NCBI GenBank assembly: GCA_025451845.1
Contig: JANWJS010000017.1
Span: 62,001 to 126,000, forward strand
Length of the DNA stretch: 64,000 nucleotides
Source: Steroidobacteraceae bacterium
GTDB lineage: Bacteria; Pseudomonadota; Gammaproteobacteria; Steroidobacterales; Steroidobacteraceae
Reading direction: 5' to 3'
Shown here: positions 2,776 through 63,393 of the stretch, piece after piece
How positions within the stretch are numbered: position 1 is the first letter of the stretch
How the letters are laid out: each line of letters begins with the position of its first letter
Made by a program: the position numbers and the translations under genes
Notes under the pieces: model-generated
Databases searched by the model: none
Seen by the model: the letters and a program-made list of their open reading frames with translations, nothing else
Told to the model about the DNA's origin: nothing

Positions 2776-4242
2776 GTGAGATACGCTCATCTGACAGCCG
2801 CACTGCTCGCAACTTCGGCCGCGGCCCTCTGCGGGCTTTGCACCGCACACGCCGGGAACCCGAATCCATTCGCGTCCGGCGGCGCTCTGCGCTGCACCGC
2901 CGACCCGAAAGCCGCCACGACCGTTCCCGGCTGGACCATTGTCTCGGGCAGTCCGGCGCTACGCTGCGGCGGCGCATTGCCGGCGATCTGGCCCTCGCGA
3001 TTGACGCCGCGGGTCGCCATCGCCAGCGGCCCGTACGGGCCGAGCGTTCTCGAGCGACTGCTGCCGCTCCAGGCCGTGGCTTCCCCAGAGCGGCGCTTCA
3101 CCCTCTCCGCAGTGTTCGGCGCTTTCGGCCGGGGGTCACAGCGCGCAGTTCTCGTGGGGAAGTTCCGCGGCGCGTCCGGTCAGCAGCTGGGCACGGCGGT
3201 CGTGCTGCGGGGGCCGCCGGCTCTCACCCGCAAGCTCCCCGTGCGCTTCGAGCCGCACGGCCTTGTCGGGCATATCCCGTCGGGCGCGGTCGAGATGGAG
3301 CTGCGCCTCGAGTTGGGTGGCAGGACCGCAGTGGCGAGGAGTTATATTGCCGCGATACGGCTCGAGACCGCTCCGCCCATGGGGTTCCCGGCGCCGGCTC
3401 CGCCGCCGGCGCGGGTGCCGCGTTTCGATCATGTGTTCCTGATCATGATGGAGAACACCGACTACGGCCAGGTCGTCGGCGACACGAAGAATGCGCCTTT
3501 CATCAATTCCCTGGCGGCTCGCGGCACATTGCTGGCGAATTACCAGGCTGTCTATCACCCGAGCGATCAGAACTATCTCGCCATCGCGGGCGGGGACACG
3601 TTCGTGCGCGGTGGCGTGTATTTCCCGAAGATCCACCTCGCGGCGCAGAACCTCGGCGATCTGCTGGAGGCCGCCGGCGAGAGCTGGAAGGCGTATCTCG
3701 AGGGGATGGGAACGCCGTGCAATGTAAGCACCCGATACGACAAGAATTTCGAGCCCGACGATGCGCCGTTCATCAATTTCAGCGACATTCAGGGCAGTCC
3801 GGGACGCTGCCGGGCGCATCTGGTCGATTTGAGTGAATGGTCCAGCGACCTGAAGGGCGCCGCGACCACCCCCGCTTTCGCGTGGCTCGCGGCCGACGAT
3901 TATGATGACGGTGAGATACCCGGCAACGGTTCGCCCAAGAGCCTGCGGGTGCAGGATACGTGGTTGCAACGGACGCTGGATCCGCTTTTTACCTCACCGG
4001 CGTGGCGCGAGCAGAGAAGCCTGCTCATCCTCACCTGGGACGAGTCCAACACGACCGTGAACAATCACATTGCGACGATCGTGGTCGGTTCGCGCGGGAC
4101 GGTCAAACCCGCGTACATCAGCCACAGGCGCTACGACAACTACAGCACGGCGCGCACCATCGAGGCGGCCCTTGGACTGCCGAGCATGACGAGCAATGAT
4201 GCCTACGCGCCGGCGCTGGACGACGCGTTCGTCCACAAGTGA
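2776..4242 (+). CDS. Secreted phosphoesterase / acid phosphatase-like protein
   Basis: 488 residues from a GTG at 2776, which puts a good signal peptide at the N-terminus (VRYAHLTAALLATSAAALCG, then a small-residue site near AHAG). It lies 50 bp from the divergent sulfotransferase start. After a poorly conserved ~200-residue N-terminal region comes a PF04185 phosphoesterase domain (AcpA / phospholipase C superfamily): FDHVFLIMMENTDYGQVVG, NAPFINSLAARG, SDQNYLAIAGGD and, near the end, LTWDESNTTVNNHIATIVVG. These segments carry the expected metal and nucleophile positions. Export to the periplasm or beyond is inferred. The natural substrate is unknown; a phosphomonoester such as phosphocholine would fit the neighbourhood but is not shown. 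Confidence 0.8.
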   Translation: MRYAHLTAALLATSAAALCGLCTAHAGNPNPFASGGALRCTADPKAATTVPGWTIVSGSPALRCGGALPAIWPSRLTPRVAIASGPYGPSVLERLLPLQAVASPERRFTLSAVFGAFGRGSQRAVLVGKFRGASGQQLGTAVVLRGPPALTRKLPVRFEPHGLVGHIPSGAVEMELRLELGGRTAVARSYIAAIRLETAPPMGFPAPAPPPARVPRFDHVFLIMMENTDYGQVVGDTKNAPFINSLAARGTLLANYQAVYHPSDQNYLAIAGGDTFVRGGVYFPKIHLAAQNLGDLLEAAGESWKAYLEGMGTPCNVSTRYDKNFEPDDAPFINFSDIQGSPGRCRAHLVDLSEWSSDLKGAATTPAFAWLAADDYDDGEIPGNGSPKSLRVQDTWLQRTLDPLFTSPAWREQRSLLILTWDESNTTVNNHIATIVVGSRGTVKPAYISHRRYDNYSTARTIEAALGLPSMTSNDAYAPALDDAFVHK

Positions 4243-4277
4243 TGCGGGGCCGCCTCGCGACGGGCGGGCGATGCGGC

Positions 4278-5231
4278 CTATTTCAGCACGACGGTCGTGC
4301 TGCCGTTGCGAAACACGCGCCGCTCGGCATGCCACTTGATAGCACGATTGAGCACGAGGGCCTCGAGCTCGCTGCCGACGACCGTCAGGTCGTCGGGCGA
4401 CTGGGTGTGATCGACCCGCGAGACCTCCTGCTCGATGATCGGCCCTTCATCGAGATCGGTCGTGACGTAGTGCGCCGTGGCGCCGATCAGCTTCACTCCC
4501 CGCGTGTGCGCCTGATGGTACGGTTTGGCGCCCTTGAAGCCGGGCAGGAAAGAATGATGGATGTTGATGGCGCGGCCCTCGAAGTACCGGCACGCCTCCG
4601 GCGTGAGGACCTGCATGTAGCGCGCCAGCACGAGAATCTCGGCTTCCACGCGCTCGAACAACTCCATGAGTCGCCGCTCCTGCTCCGGCTTGCGCCCGTC
4701 GATGATCGGCAGGTAGTGATAGGGCACCCCGTGCCACTCGGCGAGGCTGCGCATGTCCTGGTGGTTCGACACCACGGCCACCACCTCGATGGGCAGCGTG
4801 CGGGTGCTCCAACGGTGCAGGATGCTATTGAGGCAATGGCCCTGGCGTGAGACGACGATCAGGGCGCGGCAGCGGCGCACTTCATTGAAGCGCCACTCCA
4901 TTTGGAACCGTTTGCCGACGGCCTCCGTGAACTTGCGATCGAGCTCCTGCACCGGCGGCATGCCCTGACCGTTATCGTGGAAGACCGTGCGCATGAACGA
5001 CGTCCCGGTGTATGGGTCGTCATAATGCTGAGCCTCGGCAATCGTCGCATGGTGTGCGGCCAGGAACCCTGCGATTCCGGCTACGATTCCCGTCGTGTCC
5101 GGGCATCGGGTGGTGAGGATGTAAAGGGGCGGAGCGCTGGAGCTGCGCTGCACCGCGGGAGCGGTCTCTGCGGCCGGTCCCTCTCCTTTGCGGACAGGGG
5201 GGGCCGTCGATTCTTCGAGAGCAGTGGGCAT
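4278..5231 (-). CDS. purU: Formyltetrahydrofolate deformylase
   Basis: 317 residues from an ATG at 5231. An N-terminal ACT domain (about residues 35-115, PPLYILTTRCPDTTGIVAG) precedes a formyltransferase-fold hydrolase domain with RALIVVSRQGHCLNSIL, NIHHSFLPGFKGAKPY (Asn223, His225) and TTDLDEGPII (Asp261), the Asn-His-Asp triad of the family. It hydrolyses 10-formyl-THF to formate and THF. In this window it can be the non-energy-conserving exit for methyl carbon, next to the ATP-yielding fhs. It is divergent from the MttB/folD/fhs operon over a 241-bp gap. The first ~30 residues are a low-complexity extension not usual in PurU. Confidence 0.93.
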   Translation of the reverse strand: MPTALEESTAPPVRKGEGPAAETAPAVQRSSSAPPLYILTTRCPDTTGIVAGIAGFLAAHHATIAEAQHYDDPYTGTSFMRTVFHDNGQGMPPVQELDRKFTEAVGKRFQMEWRFNEVRRCRALIVVSRQGHCLNSILHRWSTRTLPIEVVAVVSNHQDMRSLAEWHGVPYHYLPIIDGRKPEQERRLMELFERVEAEILVLARYMQVLTPEACRYFEGRAINIHHSFLPGFKGAKPYHQAHTRGVKLIGATAHYVTTDLDEGPIIEQEVSRVDHTQSPDDLTVVGSELEALVLNRAIKWHAERRVFRNGSTTVVLK

Positions 5232-54046: not shown

Positions 54047-54595
54047 TCAGGACATCGCCTCGCACGCGGCCAGTGCCAGGATCTTCGTCACATACGGGGC
54101 GAAGGAGCGCGCCGTTTCGACGCGGAAAGTCTCGGCGCCGGTGCGCCAGAGCACGATCTGGGCCTTCGCGAACACCGTGCGGGTGCACATGTCGACGGGG
54201 AAAGCCGCCGAATCGAGATCGAGGGGACAGCCGGTGTTGAGAATCGTGGCGGCGCGAGCGCCGCGCAGCTCGAATGCGCCCTGCGCGTGACTGATCTCTA
54301 CCAGGGAGTGCGGCATCCCGGCCAGGGCGCGTTGCAGCAGGCTCTCCGTTTCCCCGGCCGCATCGGCAGTACCTAACAGCAGCCGCTCGTCGGGTCCCAG
54401 CCAGAGGGCCGCCCGCCCATCGTTGCGCACTGCCCGGCAGGGTGAATCGCTGCGCGGCAGCCCTAGGGCACCCACCGCGGCAACCAACGCCTGCGGGCCG
54501 CCGCGCAGCACGAACCTCGAAGCGGGGGGCAACTGCCGCAGGACAGGGCTCGTCGCCACAACCTGCTGCTGCCGCGCCGTCGACAGATCAGCCAT
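54047..54595 (-). CDS. soxG: Sarcosine oxidase gamma subunit
   Basis: 182 residues from ATG 54595, overlapping soxA by eight bases. GcvT-like small subunit: LVEISHAQGAFELRGARAAT, LNTGCPLDLDSAAFPVDMCT and FAKAQIVLWRTGAETFRVET, as in SoxG of heterotetrameric sarcosine oxidases. It completes the alpha-beta-gamma-delta enzyme with the three genes upstream. Order here is soxB-soxD-soxA-soxG, the standard one. Confidence 0.9.
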   Translation of the reverse strand: MADLSTARQQQVVATSPVLRQLPPASRFVLRGGPQALVAAVGALGLPRSDSPCRAVRNDGRAALWLGPDERLLLGTADAAGETESLLQRALAGMPHSLVEISHAQGAFELRGARAATILNTGCPLDLDSAAFPVDMCTRTVFAKAQIVLWRTGAETFRVETARSFAPYVTKILALAACEAMS

Positions 54596-57500
54596 TGAGG
54601 CGACTCCCTTGCGGGTCGTAGAAGATAGGCGAAGCCACCTGCACGGGGATATCACCGTCCGGCATGGCGACGTACAGCGTCTCTCCCATGCGAGCGCGAC
54701 CTGCGCGCAGCAGTGCGAGCGCGATGGATCGGCCGAGACTCGCGCTGTAATACGAGGAGGTCACGTGGCCGATGGCGGCCTCCGGCGCGGCGCGTTGCGG
54801 GGTCGACACGATCTGTGCGCCTTCCTCGAGCACGCATTGCGGCTCTCGAGTCAACAGTCCAACGAGCTGCTTCCGGTAGGGCGAGGCAAAAGCAGGGCGC
54901 TGCAGTGCGCGCTTGCCGAGGAAGTCGGGTTTGCTCTTGCCGACGGCCCACGACAGCCCCGCATCGTCGGCTGTCACGGTGCCATCCGTGTCCTGGCCGA
55001 CGATGATGTAGCCTTTCTCGGCTCTCAGCACGTGCATCGTCTCCGTGCCATACGGGGCGATTTCGTGCTTCTGCCCGGAATCGTAGATCGCCTGCCAGAC
55101 CGCCGGGCCGAAATCCGCGGGCACGTTGACCTCGAATCCGAGCTCACCGGTGAAGCTGACGCGCATGAGAAGCATGGGGACGCCGCAGATTCGTGCGCGC
55201 GCGACGCTCATGTGCGGCATGGCCGCAGCCGAGATGTCGATGCCTTCCAGCAGCGGCTCCAACACACGTCGGGCGCTCGGGCCCTGCACGGCGATCACGG
55301 CCCACTGCTCTGTGGTCGAAGTAAGCCATACGTCCAGATCAGGCCACTCCGTTTGCCGGTAGTCCTCCATCAGCGCGAGGACGCCAGCGGCGCCGCCGGT
55401 AGTCGTCGTGACGTGAAAGCGGTCTTCAGCCGTGCGGGCCACGACACCGTCGTCGTAGATGAATCCGTCGTCCCGCAGCAGAATGCCATAGCGGCAGCGG
55501 CCGACGGCGAGGCTCGTCCAGGCGTTGACGTACATCCTATTCATGAATGTAGCGGCGTCCTTTCCCACCACCTCGATTTTGCCGAGCGTGGAGCCGTCGA
55601 AGAGCCCGCAATGCCCGCGGGCCGCGAGGCACTCACGCGCCACGGCGGCGTGCATGTCTTCCCCCTGCCGGGGGAAGTAGCGGGCGCGCTTCCACAGGCC
55701 GACGTTCTCGAACACGGCCCCGTGGCGAGCGGCCCAGTCGTGCATCGGTGTGGTACGTACCGGGTCGAACAGCTCCCCGCGCGCGAAGCCGGCGAAGCTG
55801 CCGAAGCTTATGGGGGTGTAGGGCGGCCGGAAGGTCGTGAGCCCGACCTGCGGCATGGCCTTGTCGAGCTCCGCCGCGACGATCGCGAGCGCGTTGATAT
55901 TGGATGTTTTGCCCTGATCGGTCGCCATCCCGGTGGTGGTGTAGCGCTTGACGTGCTCGATCGAGCGGAAACCTTCGCGCGCCGCCAGGGCGAGATCTCG
56001 CGATGTGACATCGTTCTGCCAGTCGACGAAGGCCTTGCCCGTACGGATGCCGCGCGGCAGGGGGAGCGCGCCCAAAATGCCCACCGCAGAGGTCTCGGGC
56101 GGCGGCATCTGCGCAATGGCGGCGGCGACCGTGATCCCGGCGCTCTGTGCGGCGGCGAGCCCGGCACGCGTGCCGTCCTGCACCGCGGCGGCGAGCGAGA
56201 ATACTCCCCGGCACGCGCCCGCCGAGCGGACTGGCTCGGCGGCCTGTGCGGGCAGGAACGCGCCCAAACTCTCATCCCAAGCCAATTTGCCGCGGGACTG
56301 CGAGAAGAGGTGAACGCTCGGTGTCAGCCCGCCTGACATCAGGACCAGATCGCAGCCCATGCGTCGCGCCGGACCAGCCGGGACGCCGGATGCATCCAAC
56401 CTCTGGATGCGAACTGCACTGACGCGGAGCCGGCCGGATGTACCGATCACGGTGCTCCGTGTCTCGATGGGCAAGCCCGCGCGCCGTGCTGCTTCGGGCA
56501 GCACGCCGTCGGCGGAGCCGGAGCGCACGTCAACGATGGCCTTTACCGATATTCCGGCGCGATGCAGGTCGAGAGCAGCCTGGTACGCCGCATCGCATGC
56601 CGTGACCAGGACCGCCCGTGAGCCCGCGAGCACGCCGTACCGATTGAGATAGGTCCGGGCCGCCGCGGCGAGCAGAATTCCCGGCCGGTCGTTGCCCGGG
56701 AATACGAGCGGGCGCTCGATGGCGCCGGTCGCGAGCACGACTTCCTTGGCCCGTACCTGCCATTGTCGCTCCCGCGGCTGGCCGCTGTCAGGCCGCGCCA
56801 GATGGTCGCTCAGGCGCTGATTGAGTCCGAGCAGATTGTGTGGGAAGTAACCGAAGGCGGTCGTGCGCGTCAGCAACGTGACTCTCGGATGCGCGGCAAG
56901 CGTCCGTACCGTGTTCGCCATCCAGCGGTCAGCTGGCTCTCCCTCGATCACGGCCTCGGAATGGACAGTGGCCTCGGACAGGAGCGAGCCGCCGAGCTCC
57001 GGCTGTTCATCACACAGGATGACACGCGCGCCGCTTGCAGCCGCGGCGGCCGCAGCCGCGAGTCCCGCCGGGCCCGCTCCGACCACCAGCACATCACAGT
57101 GCGCGAACCGACTGGAATAGGTGTCGGGATCCGCCTCCTCGGGGGCGCGCCCGAGACCCGCCGCGGCGCGGATCTTCGGCTCATACAGGCGTTGCCAGGC
57201 GTTGCGCGGCCACATGAAAGTCTTGTAGTAGAACCCCGCCGGAATGAAAGGCGATAGCAGACCGCTCACCGCGCCGAGATCGAGCTCGAGGCTCGGCCAT
57301 CGATTCTGACTCTGTGCCTCGAGGCCCTGGTAGAGCTCGACTTGTGTCGCGCGCAAGTTCGGTGTCACGCGCGCGCCGTCCCGGCGTACCGTGACGAGTG
57401 CGTTCGGCTCCTCTGCGCCGGCGGCGAGGATGCCGCGCGGCCGGTGATACTTGAACGAGCGTCCCAGCAGGTGCACGCCGTTCGCGAGCAGTGCCGAGGC

Positions 57501-57608
57501 CAGCGTGTCGCCGGCGAAGCCGGTGTAGTCGTGCTCGTCGAATCTGAAATGGAGGGGGCGCCCGCGGTCGATGCGGCCGCCGCTCGCCGCGCGGAACGTG
57601 GCGCTCAT
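54588..57608 (-). CDS. soxA: Sarcosine oxidase alpha subunit
   Basis: 1006 residues, the usual size. N-terminal ferredoxin-like region (FRFDEHDYTGFAGDTLASAL), NAD-binding flavoprotein domain (CDVLVVGAGPAGLAAAAAAA, about 171-190), ATGAIERPLVFPGNDRPGIL, RAGLAAAQSAGI, and from about 620 a GcvT domain (MYVNAWTSLAVGRCRYGILL, VSFTGELGFEVNVPADFGPA, RAEKGYIIVGQDTDGTVTAD) that transfers the methylene to THF. The tetrameric enzyme oxidises sarcosine to glycine, H2O2 and methylene-THF. It starts in an ATGA overlap with soxD. Confidence 0.96.
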   Translation of the reverse strand: MSATFRAASGGRIDRGRPLHFRFDEHDYTGFAGDTLASALLANGVHLLGRSFKYHRPRGILAAGAEEPNALVTVRRDGARVTPNLRATQVELYQGLEAQSQNRWPSLELDLGAVSGLLSPFIPAGFYYKTFMWPRNAWQRLYEPKIRAAAGLGRAPEEADPDTYSSRFAHCDVLVVGAGPAGLAAAAAAAASGARVILCDEQPELGGSLLSEATVHSEAVIEGEPADRWMANTVRTLAAHPRVTLLTRTTAFGYFPHNLLGLNQRLSDHLARPDSGQPRERQWQVRAKEVVLATGAIERPLVFPGNDRPGILLAAAARTYLNRYGVLAGSRAVLVTACDAAYQAALDLHRAGISVKAIVDVRSGSADGVLPEAARRAGLPIETRSTVIGTSGRLRVSAVRIQRLDASGVPAGPARRMGCDLVLMSGGLTPSVHLFSQSRGKLAWDESLGAFLPAQAAEPVRSAGACRGVFSLAAAVQDGTRAGLAAAQSAGITVAAAIAQMPPPETSAVGILGALPLPRGIRTGKAFVDWQNDVTSRDLALAAREGFRSIEHVKRYTTTGMATDQGKTSNINALAIVAAELDKAMPQVGLTTFRPPYTPISFGSFAGFARGELFDPVRTTPMHDWAARHGAVFENVGLWKRARYFPRQGEDMHAAVARECLAARGHCGLFDGSTLGKIEVVGKDAATFMNRMYVNAWTSLAVGRCRYGILLRDDGFIYDDGVVARTAEDRFHVTTTTGGAAGVLALMEDYRQTEWPDLDVWLTSTTEQWAVIAVQGPSARRVLEPLLEGIDISAAAMPHMSVARARICGVPMLLMRVSFTGELGFEVNVPADFGPAVWQAIYDSGQKHEIAPYGTETMHVLRAEKGYIIVGQDTDGTVTADDAGLSWAVGKSKPDFLGKRALQRPAFASPYRKQLVGLLTREPQCVLEEGAQIVSTPQRAAPEAAIGHVTSSYYSASLGRSIALALLRAGRARMGETLYVAMPDGDIPVQVASPIFYDPQGSRLNG

Positions 57609-57904
57609 GTGCGGGGCCTCGCCACTCGCTCGAGCGCTGGCGCCGCCTCACCCACGCGATAGGTCGCCAGGAAGTGATCGTTGGTCGTGTCGCGCAGGGC
57701 GTTGAAGAATTGCCCGCAGCCGTGGGTGTGCCGCCAACGCTCGGCGTGGACTCCCCTGCTGTTGTCGCGCCAGTAGAGGAAATCGGCCCACTGCTCGTCG
57801 CTGCACTCGGCGGGGTTGCGCGGCCGCGCGACATGAGCCTGACCGCCGTAGACGAACTCGAGCTCGGGTCGCGCGCCGCAATAAGGACAGTCAATCAGCA
57901 ACAT
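57605..57904 (-). CDS. soxD: Sarcosine oxidase delta subunit
   Basis: 99 residues with a zinc site: Cys6, Cys9 (IDCPYCG) and His59, Cys63 (RWRHTHGCGQFF), the ligand set known for SoxD. Also ADFLYWRDNSRGVHAERW and FNALRDTTNDHFLATYRV, typical of the family. It is 15 bases after soxB and overlaps soxA by four. Confidence 0.95.
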   Translation of the reverse strand: MLLIDCPYCGARPELEFVYGGQAHVARPRNPAECSDEQWADFLYWRDNSRGVHAERWRHTHGCGQFFNALRDTTNDHFLATYRVGEAAPALERVARPRT

Positions 57905-57919
57905 GACGTAGCCGGCCTT

Positions 57920-59170
57920 TCAATGCGCGACGGCCGCGGCCGCCGCCTCGTCGATGAGGCGCCCATCGCGGAAGCGCTCGATCGTGAACGGGGCGTTGAT
58001 GGCATGCGGCCTATCGTGGGCGATCGTCCAGGCAAAGAGGTGCGCCGATCCGGGCGTCGCCTTGAATCCACCCGTCCCCCATCCGCAGTTGACGTACAGG
58101 CCGGGCACGGGTGTCTTGGCGATAATCGGCGAGCGGTCGGGGCTCACATCGACGATTCCACCCCAGCTCCTCAGCATCCGCATCCGGCGGAACATGGGGA
58201 AGAGCTCGCAGATGGCCTCGAGAGCATGGCTGGTGACATGGAGACCGCCGCGCTGTGTGTATGACGTATACGCGTCGGTACCCGCTCCAATCACCAGCTC
58301 CCCCTTGTCGGACTGGCTGATGTAGGCGTGGATCGTGTTCGACATCACGACACAGGGAAAGATGGGCTTGACGGGCTCGGAGACCAACGCCTGCAGGGGA
58401 TAGCTCTCCAGCGGCAGCCGGACGCCAGCCATCTTCAGAATGACGCTCGAGTGGCCCGCCGCGCAAACGCCGACCTTGCGCGCCTGGATGAGGCCACGGG
58501 CCGTCTCGAGGGCCTGCACGGCACCGTTCGCGTCGCGGCGGATGCCGGTGACTTCGCAATTCTCGATGATGTCGACGCCGAGCGCGTCGGCGGCCCGCGC
58601 ATACCCCCACGCCACCGCGTCATGCCGCGCCGTTCCGCCGCGGCTCTGGAAAGCCGCGCCCAGGACCGGGTAACGGATATCGTCGGTGCGCAGCAACGGG
58701 CAAACGGCCCGCGCCTCCTCGCATGTCAGCCATTGGTTGTCGACACGGTTGGCGCGGTTGGCGTGCACGTGCCGCTTGAAGACCTGCACGTCGTGCACGG
58801 TGTGCGCGAGCATCATGACGCCGCGCTGCGAGAACATGACGTTGTAATTGAGGTCCTGCGAGAGGCCCTCCCACATCTTCAGTGCGTGGTCGTAGAGAGC
58901 GGCGCTCTCGTCACGCAGATAGTTCGAGCGGATGATGGTGGTGTTGCGGCCGGTGTTGCCGCCGCCGATCCAGCCCTTCTCGAGGACGGCCACATTCCTG
59001 AGATTGTGCTCCTTGGCGAGGTAGTAGGCGGCGCCCAGCCCGTGTCCGCCGCCGCCGACAATGATGGCGTCGTAGGCGGCCTTCGGCTCCGGTTTACGCC
59101 ACTGCGGCTGCCAGTCGCGGTGACCGGACAGGCCTCGCCTGAGGAGCGAGAAGCCGGAGAAGCGCTGCAT
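57920..59170 (-). CDS. soxB: Sarcosine oxidase beta subunit
   Basis: 416 residues. DAO-type FAD domain [20 protein letters not shown] (33-52), [20 protein letters not shown], and [18 protein letters not shown] where His183 corresponds to the histidine that holds the covalent FMN in this enzyme; also [20 protein letters not shown] near the end. It carries the sarcosine oxidation site. First gene of soxBDAG, divergent from the BetI-BetB gene, whose BetI-like boxes lie in the shared region; joint control by betaine-aldehyde/choline status is possible. Confidence 0.96.
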
Positions 59171-59500
59171 CGTCTGATCCGTGGGCAGAGGGTTGTGGGA
59201 TTCGCCGCCAAATCATGCCGGGCACCGGCGGGTGTTACGAGCATGTGAGCGTCCGCTTCTTGAACGAATGCGACACGGCGCGCGCGACTCATCGCAACCG
59301 CCGGTCGCATCGTGCCCGCGGGACTTGACGGCGCGCCGCCGCCACTTCATGATTCGGCTGTCTTGAATGCTTGTTCAAGAGATTGGGTACCGCAGCGCAC
59401 GGTAACGGCAAGTTACTGAATCAACAGAAAAGATGGCTCGAGAAGCACGGCCTCACCCGCCTCAGCTGCACCCCCTGCGAGCGTCTCTCGGAGCACTGAA
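59171..59500. promoter_or_regulatory. Divergent control region, soxBDAG / betIB-betA
   Basis: 330 bp without a credible gene. It holds the BetI-like palindrome at 59361-59380; a second box begins at 59501. An extra half-site-like TTGAACGAA lies near 59260. No further structure was recognised. Confidence 0.55.
59361..59380. promoter_or_regulatory. Putative BetI operator 1
   Basis: Palindrome TCTTGAA-N6-TTCAAGA. Its core TTGAATGCTTGTTCAA matches the BetI operator as I recall it (TTGATTGGACGTTCAA) at 12 of 16 bases, including both TTGA/TCAA ends. It lies 120 bp before the BetI-BetB start in the region shared with soxB. Confidence 0.55.
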
Positions 59501-59516
59501 TTGAACAGACAATCAG
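59501..59516. promoter_or_regulatory. Putative BetI operator 2, overlapping the TTG start
   Basis: TTGAACAGACAATCAG matches the reverse complement of the BetI operator (TTGAACGTCCAATCAA) at 12 of 16 bases. It covers the proposed TTG start codon of the BetI-BetB gene. Such a site could block elongation or, if the true start lies downstream, sit in the leader. Confidence 0.45.
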
Positions 59517-61615
59517 GCTCTCGCCGCAACGATTCGTCCGACGGCGCCGGGGCTCGCGATGTGCCCGAGGAGGCACGGCGCCAACAGCTCATCGAAGTCA
59601 CGATCGACAGCCTCGCCGACGTCGGCTACGTGGGCAGCACGCTGGCGCAGATCGCGCAGCGCGCGGGTGTCTCCCCCGGACTGGTCGCACACTATTTCGG
59701 TGACAAGGACGGTTTGCTCGAAGCGACTTTTCGCACTCTGGCGCGCGGCATCGGCGAGCGCATGCGGGAGCGGCTGAGACGCGCCCACACGCCGCGCGGG
59801 CGCGTGCAGGCAGTGATCGATACCAACCTCGCGCCGGAGGAATTCGATCAGCGCACCGGCACGGCGTGGCTCGCGTTCTGGGGTCAGGTCCTGCACGTCA
59901 AGGGCCTGAAGCGCGTGCAGGCAGTGTACCAACGCCGCATGCTGTCGAATCTGCGCCACGCATTGAAGAAGCTGGTGCCGGCTGATCAGGCGGGCAGCCT
60001 CGCCGCGATGATTGCAGCCATGATCGATGGCGTCTGGCTGCGCGCGGCGCTCTCGCGGTGGCAGGAAGCTGACAGCGAGAGTGCCCGTGCCCTGCTCACG
60101 GCTTTCGTCGACAGCCGGTTGCAGAAATCAGCTCGAGCCGACGAGGAGCCGGCGCCGGCCAGGCCGCCGCGGGCGGGCGCGACGTCCGCACGGCCGGGGC
60201 GCCCGGGACCGAGATCCTTCAAGACCCTGAACCCTGCGACCGGCGAGGTGTTGGCCGAGATCACGATAGATGGTCCTGCCGAGGTCGCAGCGGCCGTCTC
60301 CCGGGCGGCGGCGGCGCAGAAGGAGTGGGCGAGCCTGCCGGGCGTCGGACGCGGCCGCATCCTGCGGCGTGCCGCCGACATTCTGCGCGCCCGCAACGCC
60401 GAGCTGGCCGAGCTCGAGACGCGCGATACCGGCAAACCGATCCAGGAAACCAGCGCGGTCGATGTGCTCTCGGGCGCCGACTGTCTCGAATACTATGCGG
60501 GGCTCGCCGCGAGCATCGCGGGCGAGCACCTCGACCTCGGACCGCAGGCGTTCGGCTACACGCGGCGCGAGCCGCTCGGCGTCGTCGCGGGCATTGGTGC
60601 CTGGAACTACCCGCTGCAGATCGCCTGTTGGAAGTCGGCACCGGCGCTCGCCTGCGGCAACGCGATGATCTTCAAGCCCGCCGAGCTGACTCCCCTGACG
60701 GCCATGAAGCTGCGCGAGGTATTCACTGAGGCGGGCCTGCCGGAAGGAGTGTTTCAGGTCGTGCAGGGCATGGCGGATACCGGTCGTCTGCTCACCGCGC
60801 ATCCCGAGATCCGCAAGGTCTCGCTCACCGGCGAGGTCGGGACGGGCAAGGCGGTCATGGCGGATTCGGCCGCCTCGCTGAAGCAGGTGACGCTCGAGCT
60901 CGGGGGCAAGTCGCCGCTCATCGTCTTCGACGATGCGGTCCTCGAGAACGCCGTCGGCGGCGCGCTGCTCGGCAACTTCTACTCCGCCGGCGAGGTCTGC
61001 TCGAACGGTACGCGCGTGTTCGTGCATCGCACCCTCAAGACGGCTTTTCTCGAGCGGCTCGCGGCGCGGGTGAGCGCCATGCGCATCGGCGATCCGCTGG
61101 ACCCGGCGACGCAGGTGGGCGCGCTGATCTCGGAAGACCACATGGGCAAGGTACTGGCCTATATCGCTCGCGGCAAGGCCGAGGGCGCACGGCTGGTCAC
61201 CGGCGGTCATCGCATCACCAGCGGTGACCTCGCGAACGGGTTCTTCGTCGCGCCGACCGTCTTCGACGAATGCCACGACGACATGGCTATCGTCCGGGAG
61301 GAGATTTTCGGGCCCGTGATGTCGGTGCTGGAGTTTGAGGACGAGGCGGAGGTGATCGCCCGCGCCAATGCGACCGAGTTTGGCCTGGCCGCCGGCGTCT
61401 TCACCAATGATCTGACGCGGGCCCACCGCGTCATCGCGCGGCTGCAGGCCGGAACCTGTTGGATCAATCATTACAATGTCACGCCGATCGAGCTGCCGTT
61501 CGGGGGTGTGAAGCGCTCCGGGCTGGGGCGCGAGAACGGCCGGGCGGCGATCGAGCACTACACCCAACTCAAGAGCGTCTACGTCGCCATGGGCGATGTC
61601 GAAGCGCCGTACTGA
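59501..61615 (+). CDS. betIB: BetI-BetB fusion: TetR regulator joined to betaine aldehyde dehydrogenase
   Basis: One uninterrupted 704-residue frame. Residues ~23-205 are a BetI-like TetR protein: helix-turn-helix at about 46-68 ([32 protein letters not shown]) and a BetI-type core ([20 protein letters not shown]). Residues ~208-239 are a Pro/Arg/Ala linker. From ~240 to the end is an aldehyde dehydrogenase with [21 protein letters not shown] (Asn369), TLELGGKSP (Glu466) and EVCSNGTR (catalytic Cys500). The enzyme part lacks the first ~20 residues of free BetB, arguing against two separate products. It should oxidise betaine aldehyde to glycine betaine and could repress its own operon. The TTG start is inferred; betA follows. 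Confidence 0.9.
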
Positions 61616-61731: not shown

Positions 61732-63393
61732 ATGAGCTCAGAGGCTTTTGACTATGTGATCGTCGGGGCAGGCTCCGCGGGCTGCGTGCTCGCGGACCGG
61801 CTGACCGAGAGCGGCGAGCATTCCGTGCTGCTGCTGGAATACGGCGGCTCCGATCGGTCGGTCTACATCCAGATGCCCGCGGCGCTGTCGATTCCGATGA
61901 ACCTGCCGCGCTACAACTGGTTCTTCCAGACGGAGCCCGAGCCGGGTCTTGGTGGACGCAGCCTACATACGCCGCGCGGCAAGGTGCTGGGCGGATCCTC
62001 CTCCATCAACGGGCTGGTCTATGTCAGGGGCAATCCGCTCGACTTCGAGCGCTGGGCGTCGGAAGGCGCGGGCGGGTGGGGCTATCGGGATGTATTGCCC
62101 TATTTCAAGCGCACGGAGCGGCGCAACGGAGGAGGGGACACCTACCGCGGCGGCGCAGGCAAAGTCGACACCCGCTACGGTCCGCTCGACAATCCGCTGA
62201 ACAAAGTCTGGCTCGAGGCCGGGCAGCAGGCGGGTTATCCCTTCACCCACGACATGAACGGCTTCCAGCAGGAAGGCTTTGGCCGCATGGACATGACGGT
62301 GGGCAGCGGTCGGCGCGCAAGCGCTGCCAACGCGTATCTTCGCCCGGCCATGCGCCGGCGGAACCTCGCCGTACGCACTCATTCGCTTGCGACTCGTGTG
62401 CTCTTCGAGGGGCGCCGCGCGGTCGGGGTCGCGTATCGCCGTGGGAACGTAGAGCACATTGCGCGAGCGCGCCGCGAAGTAATCGTGAGCGCAGGCCCCA
62501 TTCAGTCGCCCAAGCTGCTGAAGCTCTCGGGCGTCGGGCCGGTGCCGGAGCTCTCGCGATACGGCATTCCGATCGTCCACGCTCTGCCGGGCGTCGGGGA
62601 GAACCTGCAGGACCATCTGGAGTTCTATTTCCAGATGGCGTCGACGCAACCGGTCACGCTCTACTCACAGACGACCCTCTTTCGCAAGGCGCTCATCGGC
62701 ATGCGCTGGCTGCTCACGAAGGACGGCCTCGGAGCGAGCAATCACTTCGAGACGGGCGGCTTCATCCGCAGCCGCGCCGGCGTCCGCTATCCCAACATTC
62801 AATATCACTTTCTGCCCATGGCGGTGAGCTATGACGGCTCCTCACTGGCACGGGAGCACGGCTTCCAGGCCCATGTCGGACCCATGCGCTCGCAGAGCAA
62901 AGGCTGGGTACGGCTGGCCTCCGCGGACCCGATCGAGAAGCCCAAGGTGTTCTTCAATTACCTGTCGCGGCCGGAAGACCGGGAGGAAATGCGCGCCTGC
63001 GTGCGTCTCACGCGCGAAATCTTCGCGCAGCCGGCGTTCGCGCCCTACCGTGGGCGCGAGATTCAGCCGGGCGCGGCCGTACAGAGCGAGGAGCAGATCG
63101 ACGAATTCATTCGCCAACACGTCGAGAGCGCCTATCACCCCTCGTGCTCGTGCAGGATGGGGAGCCCGGACGATCCGATGACCGTGGTCGACCCTGAGGC
63201 GCGAGTCATTGGATTGGAGGGATTGCGGGTGGTCGACTCCTCGATCATGCCTTCGATCACGACCGGGAATCTCAACGCTCCCACCCTCATGCTGGCGGAG
63301 AAGGCGGCCGACCACATCCGCGGTCAATCTCCGCTGCCGCCCGAAAACGCGCCCTTCTACGTCGCGCCGAACTGGGAAACCTCGCAGCGTTGA
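61732..63393 (+). CDS. betA: Choline dehydrogenase
   Basis: 553 residues from ATG 61732. GMC oxidoreductase: FDYVIVGAGSAGCVLADRLT, RGKVLGGSSSINGLVYVRGN, VSAGPIQSPKLLKLSGVGPV and SAYHPSCSCRMG with the catalytic His469, then GLRVVDSSIMPSITTGNLNA; the SAYHPSC motif is that of true BetA. It oxidises choline to betaine aldehyde at the inner membrane, delivering electrons to the respiratory chain. Together with the upstream fusion it forms a betIB-betA operon. Its neighbourhood and the motif make choline the most likely substrate. Confidence 0.93.
   Translation: MSSEAFDYVIVGAGSAGCVLADRLTESGEHSVLLLEYGGSDRSVYIQMPAALSIPMNLPRYNWFFQTEPEPGLGGRSLHTPRGKVLGGSSSINGLVYVRGNPLDFERWASEGAGGWGYRDVLPYFKRTERRNGGGDTYRGGAGKVDTRYGPLDNPLNKVWLEAGQQAGYPFTHDMNGFQQEGFGRMDMTVGSGRRASAANAYLRPAMRRRNLAVRTHSLATRVLFEGRRAVGVAYRRGNVEHIARARREVIVSAGPIQSPKLLKLSGVGPVPELSRYGIPIVHALPGVGENLQDHLEFYFQMASTQPVTLYSQTTLFRKALIGMRWLLTKDGLGASNHFETGGFIRSRAGVRYPNIQYHFLPMAVSYDGSSLAREHGFQAHVGPMRSQSKGWVRLASADPIEKPKVFFNYLSRPEDREEMRACVRLTREIFAQPAFAPYRGREIQPGAAVQSEEQIDEFIRQHVESAYHPSCSCRMGSPDDPMTVVDPEARVIGLEGLRVVDSSIMPSITTGNLNAPTLMLAEKAADHIRGQSPLPPENAPFYVAPNWETSQR

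Follow-up and report, generated by a model that had tools for sequence, protein, structure and literature searches.

A single-chain BetI-BetB fusion in Steroidobacteraceae with BetI-like operator sites at its promoter and start codon

Few metabolic enzymes are, to our knowledge, fused to their own repressor, the textbook case being PutA. In this trifunctional protein, an autogenous repressor and an aldehyde-oxidising dehydrogenase domain reside in one chain that also carries a ribbon-helix-helix domain and a proline dehydrogenase and undergoes membrane switching, and PutA, like BetI, is a single-target regulator in E. coli (PMC5293562, PMC8249747). A repressor is also joined to an enzyme in ArsRM of Brevundimonas sp. 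M20, which combines an ArsR-family regulator with an arsenite methyltransferase and reportedly shows enzyme activity as well as binding to a palindrome in the promoter of its own gene (PMC10190100). Furthermore, in the fusions of the CR.NsoJS138I type, the neighbouring genes for a regulator (the C protein) and a restriction endonuclease are joined, only the full-length protein was detected and both activities were reported to be retained (PMC3850674). By these reports, proteins that unite an enzyme with its regulator are a known kind. The betIBA operon holds the domains of interest here in the order betI-betB-betA behind a BetI-type promoter operator, with BetI and BetB made as two polypeptides (PMC7876524, PMC12442346).

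Here, we describe a gene that encodes BetI and BetB as one polypeptide, located in a window of 64,000 nucleotides (the whole stretch of DNA that was analysed) from a Steroidobacteraceae genome (Table 1). In contrast to PutA, the protein combines only a TetR/BetI part with a betaine aldehyde dehydrogenase (BADH), and the DNA-binding parts of the two proteins come from different families (PMC5293562, PMC8249747); Pfam detected TetR_N, TetR_C_6 and Aldedh only, with no ribbon-helix-helix or proline dehydrogenase domain, which places the fusion outside the PutA family. ArsRM differs in pathway and fold (PMC10190100), and the C protein is an activator-repressor that serves a restriction system instead of metabolism (PMC3850674). 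The preliminary description of this DNA knew of no described BetI-BetB fusion. This holds for the matches listed in the open-licence PubMed Central literature, among which we found none (in the passage concerned of PMC7824335, 'fused' is applied to methyltransferases and an osmolyte, not to BetI), but RefSeq already holds the protein as 'betB'. The fusion looks like an undescribed enzyme regulating its own gene, and what is new, as judged from sequence, is the putative control DNA, with one operator-like site (O1) behind a conserved promoter and a second (O2) over the start codon.

Table 1. Features of the BetI-BetB locus (positions in the window)
Feature	Position	Strand	Description
Sarcosine-oxidase-beta-like FAD oxidoreductase	57920..59170	-	PF01266; divergent, shares control region with the fusion
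Promoter	59325..59353	+	-35 TTGACG 59325-59330, 17-nt spacer, -10 CATGAT 59348-59353
O1, BetI-like operator	59363..59378	.	TTGAATGCTTGTTCAA; 59361-59380 if 7-bp arms are counted; lies 9 nt past the -10 box
Ribosome binding site	59490..59493	+	GGAG, 7 nt before TTG start; read in sequence
O2, BetI-like site	59501..59516	.	TTGAACAGACAATCAG; overlaps TTG start, codons 1-6; 9/12 positions match
BetI-BetB fusion gene	59501..61615	+	TTG start, TGA stop, 704 codons/aa, one open frame
BetI half	59588..60121	+	residues 30-207; TetR_N helix-turn-helix and BetI-type C-terminal domain (PF00440, PF13977)
Linker	60122..60211	+	residues 208-237; Pro/Arg/Ala-rich; length and sequence variable; predicted disordered
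BetB half	60212..61579	+	residues 238-693; betaine aldehyde dehydrogenase; PF00171; Asn369, Glu466, Cys500
betA-like choline dehydrogenase (GMC oxidoreductase)	61732..63393	+	next gene downstream; ATG start read from sequence

At the gene level, an enzyme and a DNA-binding domain are encoded in one chain, composed of TetR_N (residues 30-75), TetR_C_6 of the BetI type (98-207) and Aldedh (238-693). Residues 22-208 scored 209.1 bits against the BetI equivalog TIGR03384 (cut-off 201.3) and 201.8 bits against NF001978 (cut-off 118). The BetB half passed both BADH equivalogs, NF009725 (787.3 bits; cut-off 593) and TIGR01804 (678.8; 668.6), although its N-terminus is incomplete, with the profile alignments beginning at position 22 of 488 and position 14 of 467, respectively. 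The preliminary description is borne out on these points: BetI and BetB share a single frame of 704 codons, with both halves above equivalog cut-offs; the Pro/Arg/Ala linker, placed by it at about residues 208-239, was found at about 208-237; the BetB part lacks its usual first residues; and Asn369, Glu466 and Cys500, which we take to be the catalytic residues of the BetB half, are all in place. The solved structures closest in sequence to the BetB half are BADHs, with 3r31 ranking first, and the fusion is the sole BetI-BetB locus found in its own genome, where the next aldehyde dehydrogenase is 42% identical. An AlphaFold2 model, based on 53 fused proteins out of 66 sequences listed, has a mean pLDDT of 80.4, with nine helices in the first part and a mixed helix-strand fold in the second; pLDDT falls below 50 at linker residues 216-234 and likewise at 341-356 and 651-692. 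The best 50 of 1292 Foldseek matches to this model were all BADHs or other aldehyde dehydrogenases, with no regulator-enzyme chain among them.

The preliminary description had also held that BetB could not easily be made alone. No internal BetB start is common to the 23 members examined. A GTG within 'GEV', directly after the NPATG motif (NPATG+6), is present in 14 of the 23, and inspection by eye makes its use for BetB unlikely: it has no correctly spaced ribosome site and would truncate the domain. To this extent the claim stands, but the short start is not peculiar to fusions, given that the separate BetB proteins of three family loci (L074, L079 and L089) likewise start within about 12 residues of NPATG; several fusions outside the family retain the usual BetB N-terminal residues. 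An intact single chain is the expected product, rather than two polypeptides.

The promoter is the only promoter-like match in positions 59171-59560 (mean 0.0 in 50 shuffles). When the requirement was relaxed to matches at 4 of 6 and 3 of 6 positions, applied without a shuffle control, 65 of 67 loci had a -35/-10 pair in the 60 nt preceding O1, usually TTGACC/G with CATGAT or CATCAT. O1 probably covers the transcription start, and its position is the same in most fused relatives. The site is expected 0.01 times in the window. Its consensus, TTGAAYNNNNRTTYAA, occurs at one place in the 4,398,083 bases of the genome, which is O1 itself, and the looser pattern TTGAAN6TTCAA occurs at two, O1 and one on contig C36; a wider regulon of O1-like sites was rejected on these counts. 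We read O1 as a BetI-type operator by resemblance, because similar sites are carried by separate betI genes, which elsewhere have TTGATTGAACGTTCAA-like sites, and by R. pomeroyi, in which footprinting reportedly defined the BetI1 box ATTGACG*CGTCAAT (PMC12442346). Both this box and the BetI2 flank AAACTTGAAC resemble O1 and O2; however, BetI2 of R. pomeroyi has two overlapping boxes, whereas the two sites of the fusion are 138 bp apart, one of them over the start codon (PMC7876524, PMC12442346). Between O1 and O2, at window positions of about 59395-59440, some members of the genus have a leader with TGTCAAG, which resembles a -35 box on the opposite strand, and with a conserved stretch around CTGA.

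At the start codon, GGAG or a similar form precedes the start in most relatives, and in many of them the reverse complement of O2, TTGATTGNYTGTTCAA, resembles the Acidocella site TTGATTGGTTGTTCAA. An in-frame xTGAA candidate lies at the start in 68 of 91 non-redundant loci (that of L173 is spurious); the 23 loci without it comprise 20 that are outside the family or split, plus L027, L066 and L070, the last counted as a miss because the position used was wrong. Codon 1 of the candidates is TTG in 57, CTG in 10 and GTG in one, which is spurious. Every one of the 61 loci with Ser at codon 5 encodes it by TCA, compared with 76 of 1974 Ser codons (3.9%) elsewhere in the open reading frames, the candidates having been chosen by an operator score that leans towards TCA at this codon. 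Because the Ser loci use no other Ser codon there, we read codon 5 as reflecting a constraint at the DNA level. All 10 loci with an O2 starting in CTG, in which a CTG start codon would be implied, also have CTGAA in O1; L100 and L103 have CTGAA in O1 only, so that O1 and O2 do not always change together. In genus g297 (L044-L047, L051-L053, L055 and L063), both operators start with CTGAA instead of TTGAA, and seven of these nine loci have GLIAHYF or GLIGHYF in place of GLVAHYF in the recognition helix (L047 and L055 are unchanged), a possible case of protein-operator co-evolution.

Operator-like DNA accompanies the DNA-binding half, as far as can be judged among related loci, whose counts overstate independence, and with a score derived partly from loci later tested with it. 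Within 330 nt upstream, the best site matches at least 10 of 12 positions in 50 of 56 fused loci, 3 of 16 BetB-only loci (two of the 16 being outgroups of the class) and none of three loci with an FdsD-BetB fusion; L018, L019 and L044 entered this scoring with wrongly placed starts. Against dinucleotide shuffles, p was <=0.02 in 49/56 fused and 3/16 BetB-only loci. The three BetB-only loci with a site are an identical pair, in which it lies at -19, and L084, whose site at -174 is perhaps a relic; over 700 nt upstream a few weaker sites appear in BetB-only loci. At a threshold of 9/12, at least one site is found in all 77 fused loci (79 less two with <300 nt upstream), in 14 of 15 loci with a separate betI and in 7% of mononucleotide-shuffled upstream regions; at least two sites are found in 56 of the 77 fused loci vs 3 of the 15 split ones. 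The two split members of the family, L074 and L077, have one site each, an O1 scoring 11 upstream of betI, and fused loci outside the family have one site in 12 of 19 cases and two in seven. The PutA-like layout suggested in the preliminary description is supported at the gene level.

We consider that the fusion, formed from betI and betB of an ancestral betIBA operon, probably encodes a PutA-like choline enzyme that represses its own gene from within a single chain. This reading draws on the two equivalog halves, purifying selection, the free linker, the betA gene downstream and the BetI-like operators at promoter and start. In the proposed circuit, the BetI half would bind O1, with O2 as an auxiliary site, and prevent the fusion gene and betA from being transcribed. 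The BetI half would be loosened by choline or a related ligand, as taken from the BetI family; BetA would then form betaine aldehyde, which the BetB half would oxidise and so remove. With a strict 1:1 ratio of repressor to enzyme, each burst of enzyme would also restore repression once choline is gone. The same ratio would bring the repressor to enzyme-like amounts, so that the circuit would need either weak DNA binding once induced or regulation by ligands of the enzyme itself. The choline induction step is not to be assumed, because choline reportedly improves the formation of DNA complexes by BetI of E. coli (cited in PMC12442346). DNA binding may also be coupled to catalysis, though this is only a guess. 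Against the self-repressing reading, the BetI half has been lost repeatedly in the family and is thus dispensable, O2 is an imperfect palindrome (9/12 in the window) and most of the genomes are metagenome assemblies.

In a passive version of this explanation, BetI would merely be tethered, the halves would act as if alone, choline would exert control through the BetI half only, and joining would only fix the 1:1 stoichiometry. We place this version a little below an even chance: the linker is long, variable and predicted to be disordered, both halves match ordinary families, the split loci L074 and L077 keep O1 and operators of this type also accompany ordinary betI genes, but the join persists across genera and beyond the class, and two or more operator-like sites are more frequent among fused loci than among split ones.

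BADH is a tetramer, and in a trigger enzyme with looping, two BetI dimers on this tetramer would hold O1 and O2 until substrate or cofactor opens the loop. Although the presence of two sites 138 bp apart in the window and their enrichment in fused loci over split ones, including the single sites of the two split family members, fit such an arrangement, we regard it as rather unlikely, given that 12 of 19 fused loci outside the family have only one site and that the spacings give helical phasing no support. Of 65 O1-O2 spacings, 55 fall in 137-142, 147-152 or 158-162 bp; for a 10.5-bp helical period, p is about 0.16 on distinct spacing values, and periods of 11-12 fit the full set of values equally well or better, so that phasing is not claimed. 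More doubtful is the arrangement in which four BetI heads on a dehydrogenase tetramer bridge the promoter operator and the start-codon operator and betaine aldehyde or NAD opens the loop. If true, the pathway's own flux would switch the gene via a loop bridged by a metabolic dehydrogenase tetramer.

If the preferred, self-repressing reading holds, BetI-BetB would add to the few such enzymes another case, comprising an aldehyde dehydrogenase, a sensor domain of a known family and a compact control region. Furthermore, natural relatives that are fused, re-split or BetB-only, together with a homologue in a vinegar isolate, make the effect of joining a repressor to an enzyme directly testable.

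Both halves are, as estimated from the coding sequences, under purifying selection, and the linker is free to vary. In nine pairs, some of which share a member, dN/dS was 0.03-0.15 for the BetI half, 0.03-0.12 for the BetB half and 0.21-0.66 for the linker, the latter from stretches of 28-40 codons. In 20-residue windows across 23 full-length members, conservation was 45-53% at residues 201-240 and 51% at 1-20, and 68-99% in the other windows up to residue 704. Thus, both halves seem to be kept functional. A vestigial BetI half, which would make the protein just a BADH carrying an appendage at its N-terminus, is very improbable: the repeated loss of this half in the family would suit such a reading, but its dN/dS is about as low as that of the enzyme, the recognition helix is nearly invariant among fused loci, and the operators are retained with the BetI half and mostly missing without it.

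Uninterrupted homologues of the fusion, defined as stop-free matches from residue 22 or earlier through residue 704, are present in 56 of 217 genomes of the family, representing 8 of 25 genera, own genome included. At 1e-130, 90 of the 217 genomes have a match; beyond the 56, some more of these are cut by contig ends and one (G044) carries an internal TGA. A first search of relatives gave matches at 1e-120 in 34 of 99. The BetI half has 118 relatives in genome_contigs, partly the same as those in the G genomes, and among the best 80 of the 118, 71 are fused, five run off the contig, two are masked and two are split. Record titles include three Steroidobacteraceae, many Gammaproteobacteria and others from Caulobacterales/Caulobacteraceae, Acetobacteraceae and Sphingomonadaceae; the domains were verified in four genome_contigs loci, and the fusion also occurs in Acidocella aquatica NBRC 112502. 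A fused gene titled Arthrobacter sp. TPD3018 (L174) groups with a Sphingomonadaceae record, and its organism label is doubtful. In a class sample of 369 genomes, six matched at 1e-190, with a fusion only in the own genome, and in a phylum sample of 398 genomes, which reaches another class, 17 matched at 1e-200, five of them full-length and stop-free (own included), one being the one-contig genome G882.

Among 189 plasmid records with a match, the best two belong to Komagataeibacter saccharivorans, and on the closed plasmid of strain CV1 the fusion is a single RefSeq CDS of 676 aa (WP_254058047.1) with all three Pfam domains. Its RefSeq name (NZ_CP023037.1:96699-98729) is plain betB, and the RefSeq start falls inside TetR_N, with the profile match beginning at position 6 and the open frame reaching further upstream. 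This one annotated record examined points to a blind spot in naming, with the regulator hidden. The third plasmid match, from Indioceanicola profundi, was rejected as a fusion, its frame stopping before BetB. An assembly error or frameshift merging two genes, for which one could cite the draft state of the own genome (58 contigs) and which the preliminary description had named among its possible refutations, is ruled out for practical purposes by the same stop-free fusion with diverged linkers in 56 of 217 family genomes, in the one-contig genome and on the closed plasmid.

In the BetB tree of the family, with 85 rows (57 fused, 16 BetB-only, 5 split, 3 FdsD and 4 cut), fused and unfused states change 11 times, with seven changes forced by well-supported branches. 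With an unfused outgroup, this tree is most simply explained by one gain and about ten losses, several gains being conceivable. In a wider quick tree, also of 85 rows and thinned from 118, a branch with SH-aLRT 97 delimits one side that comprises every one of the 51 fused rows, together with 18 of 21 BetB-only rows (L031, L033, L034 and L081, classed as BetB-only, are cut by contig ends) and one of 13 split rows; both trees exclude L030, which has a stop inside, and L032, which equals L093. A single origin of the fusion with repeated loss of the repressor half is thus favoured. Horizontal transfer of the fusion is likely, because rows of other classes sit both near the base of the fused side and among the family's own rows. 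In L074 and L077, from one genus and nested deep among fused loci, betI and betB are separate genes about 30 nt apart with a short BetB start, probably a fission of the fused gene. Elsewhere, betI and betB are ordinary neighbours (in a search that favoured same-frame pairs), and the fusion could have arisen by loss of one stop codon between them.

The betA-like gene contains PF00732 and PF05199 (Pfam on 61738-63393). Among fused loci that offer at least 400 nt of downstream sequence, all 76 of 76 have a same-strand betA match within the next 1200 nt, and a betA match also follows in 20/23 BetB-only and 13/15 split loci. On the other side, sarcosine-oxidase-like genes occupy window positions 54588-59170 (- strand), divergent from the fusion, and O1 lies in the shared control region. 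Steps from choline to glycine may thus be clustered at the window locus. The divergent gene was seen in 3 of 76 fused loci, a lower bound considering that many loci have little upstream sequence, and is not claimed as a conserved partner.

Additionally, we observed a second kind of BetB fusion. In L090 (positions 3383-5053), L091 and L092 (genomes G593, G595 and G591), BetB is joined to FdsD, the formate dehydrogenase delta subunit (PF11390, checked in L090), and putative formate dehydrogenase genes are nearby. The three loci form one clade (100/98) nested among the BetI-BetB fusions. Betaine breakdown yields one-carbon units, and a link of FdsD-BetB to formate oxidation may therefore be meaningful. 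Finally, genome G534 has two BetB-only copies, L083 and L085; the match of one of them, on contig C16, crosses two in-frame TGA codons, perhaps marking a decayed N-terminal part.
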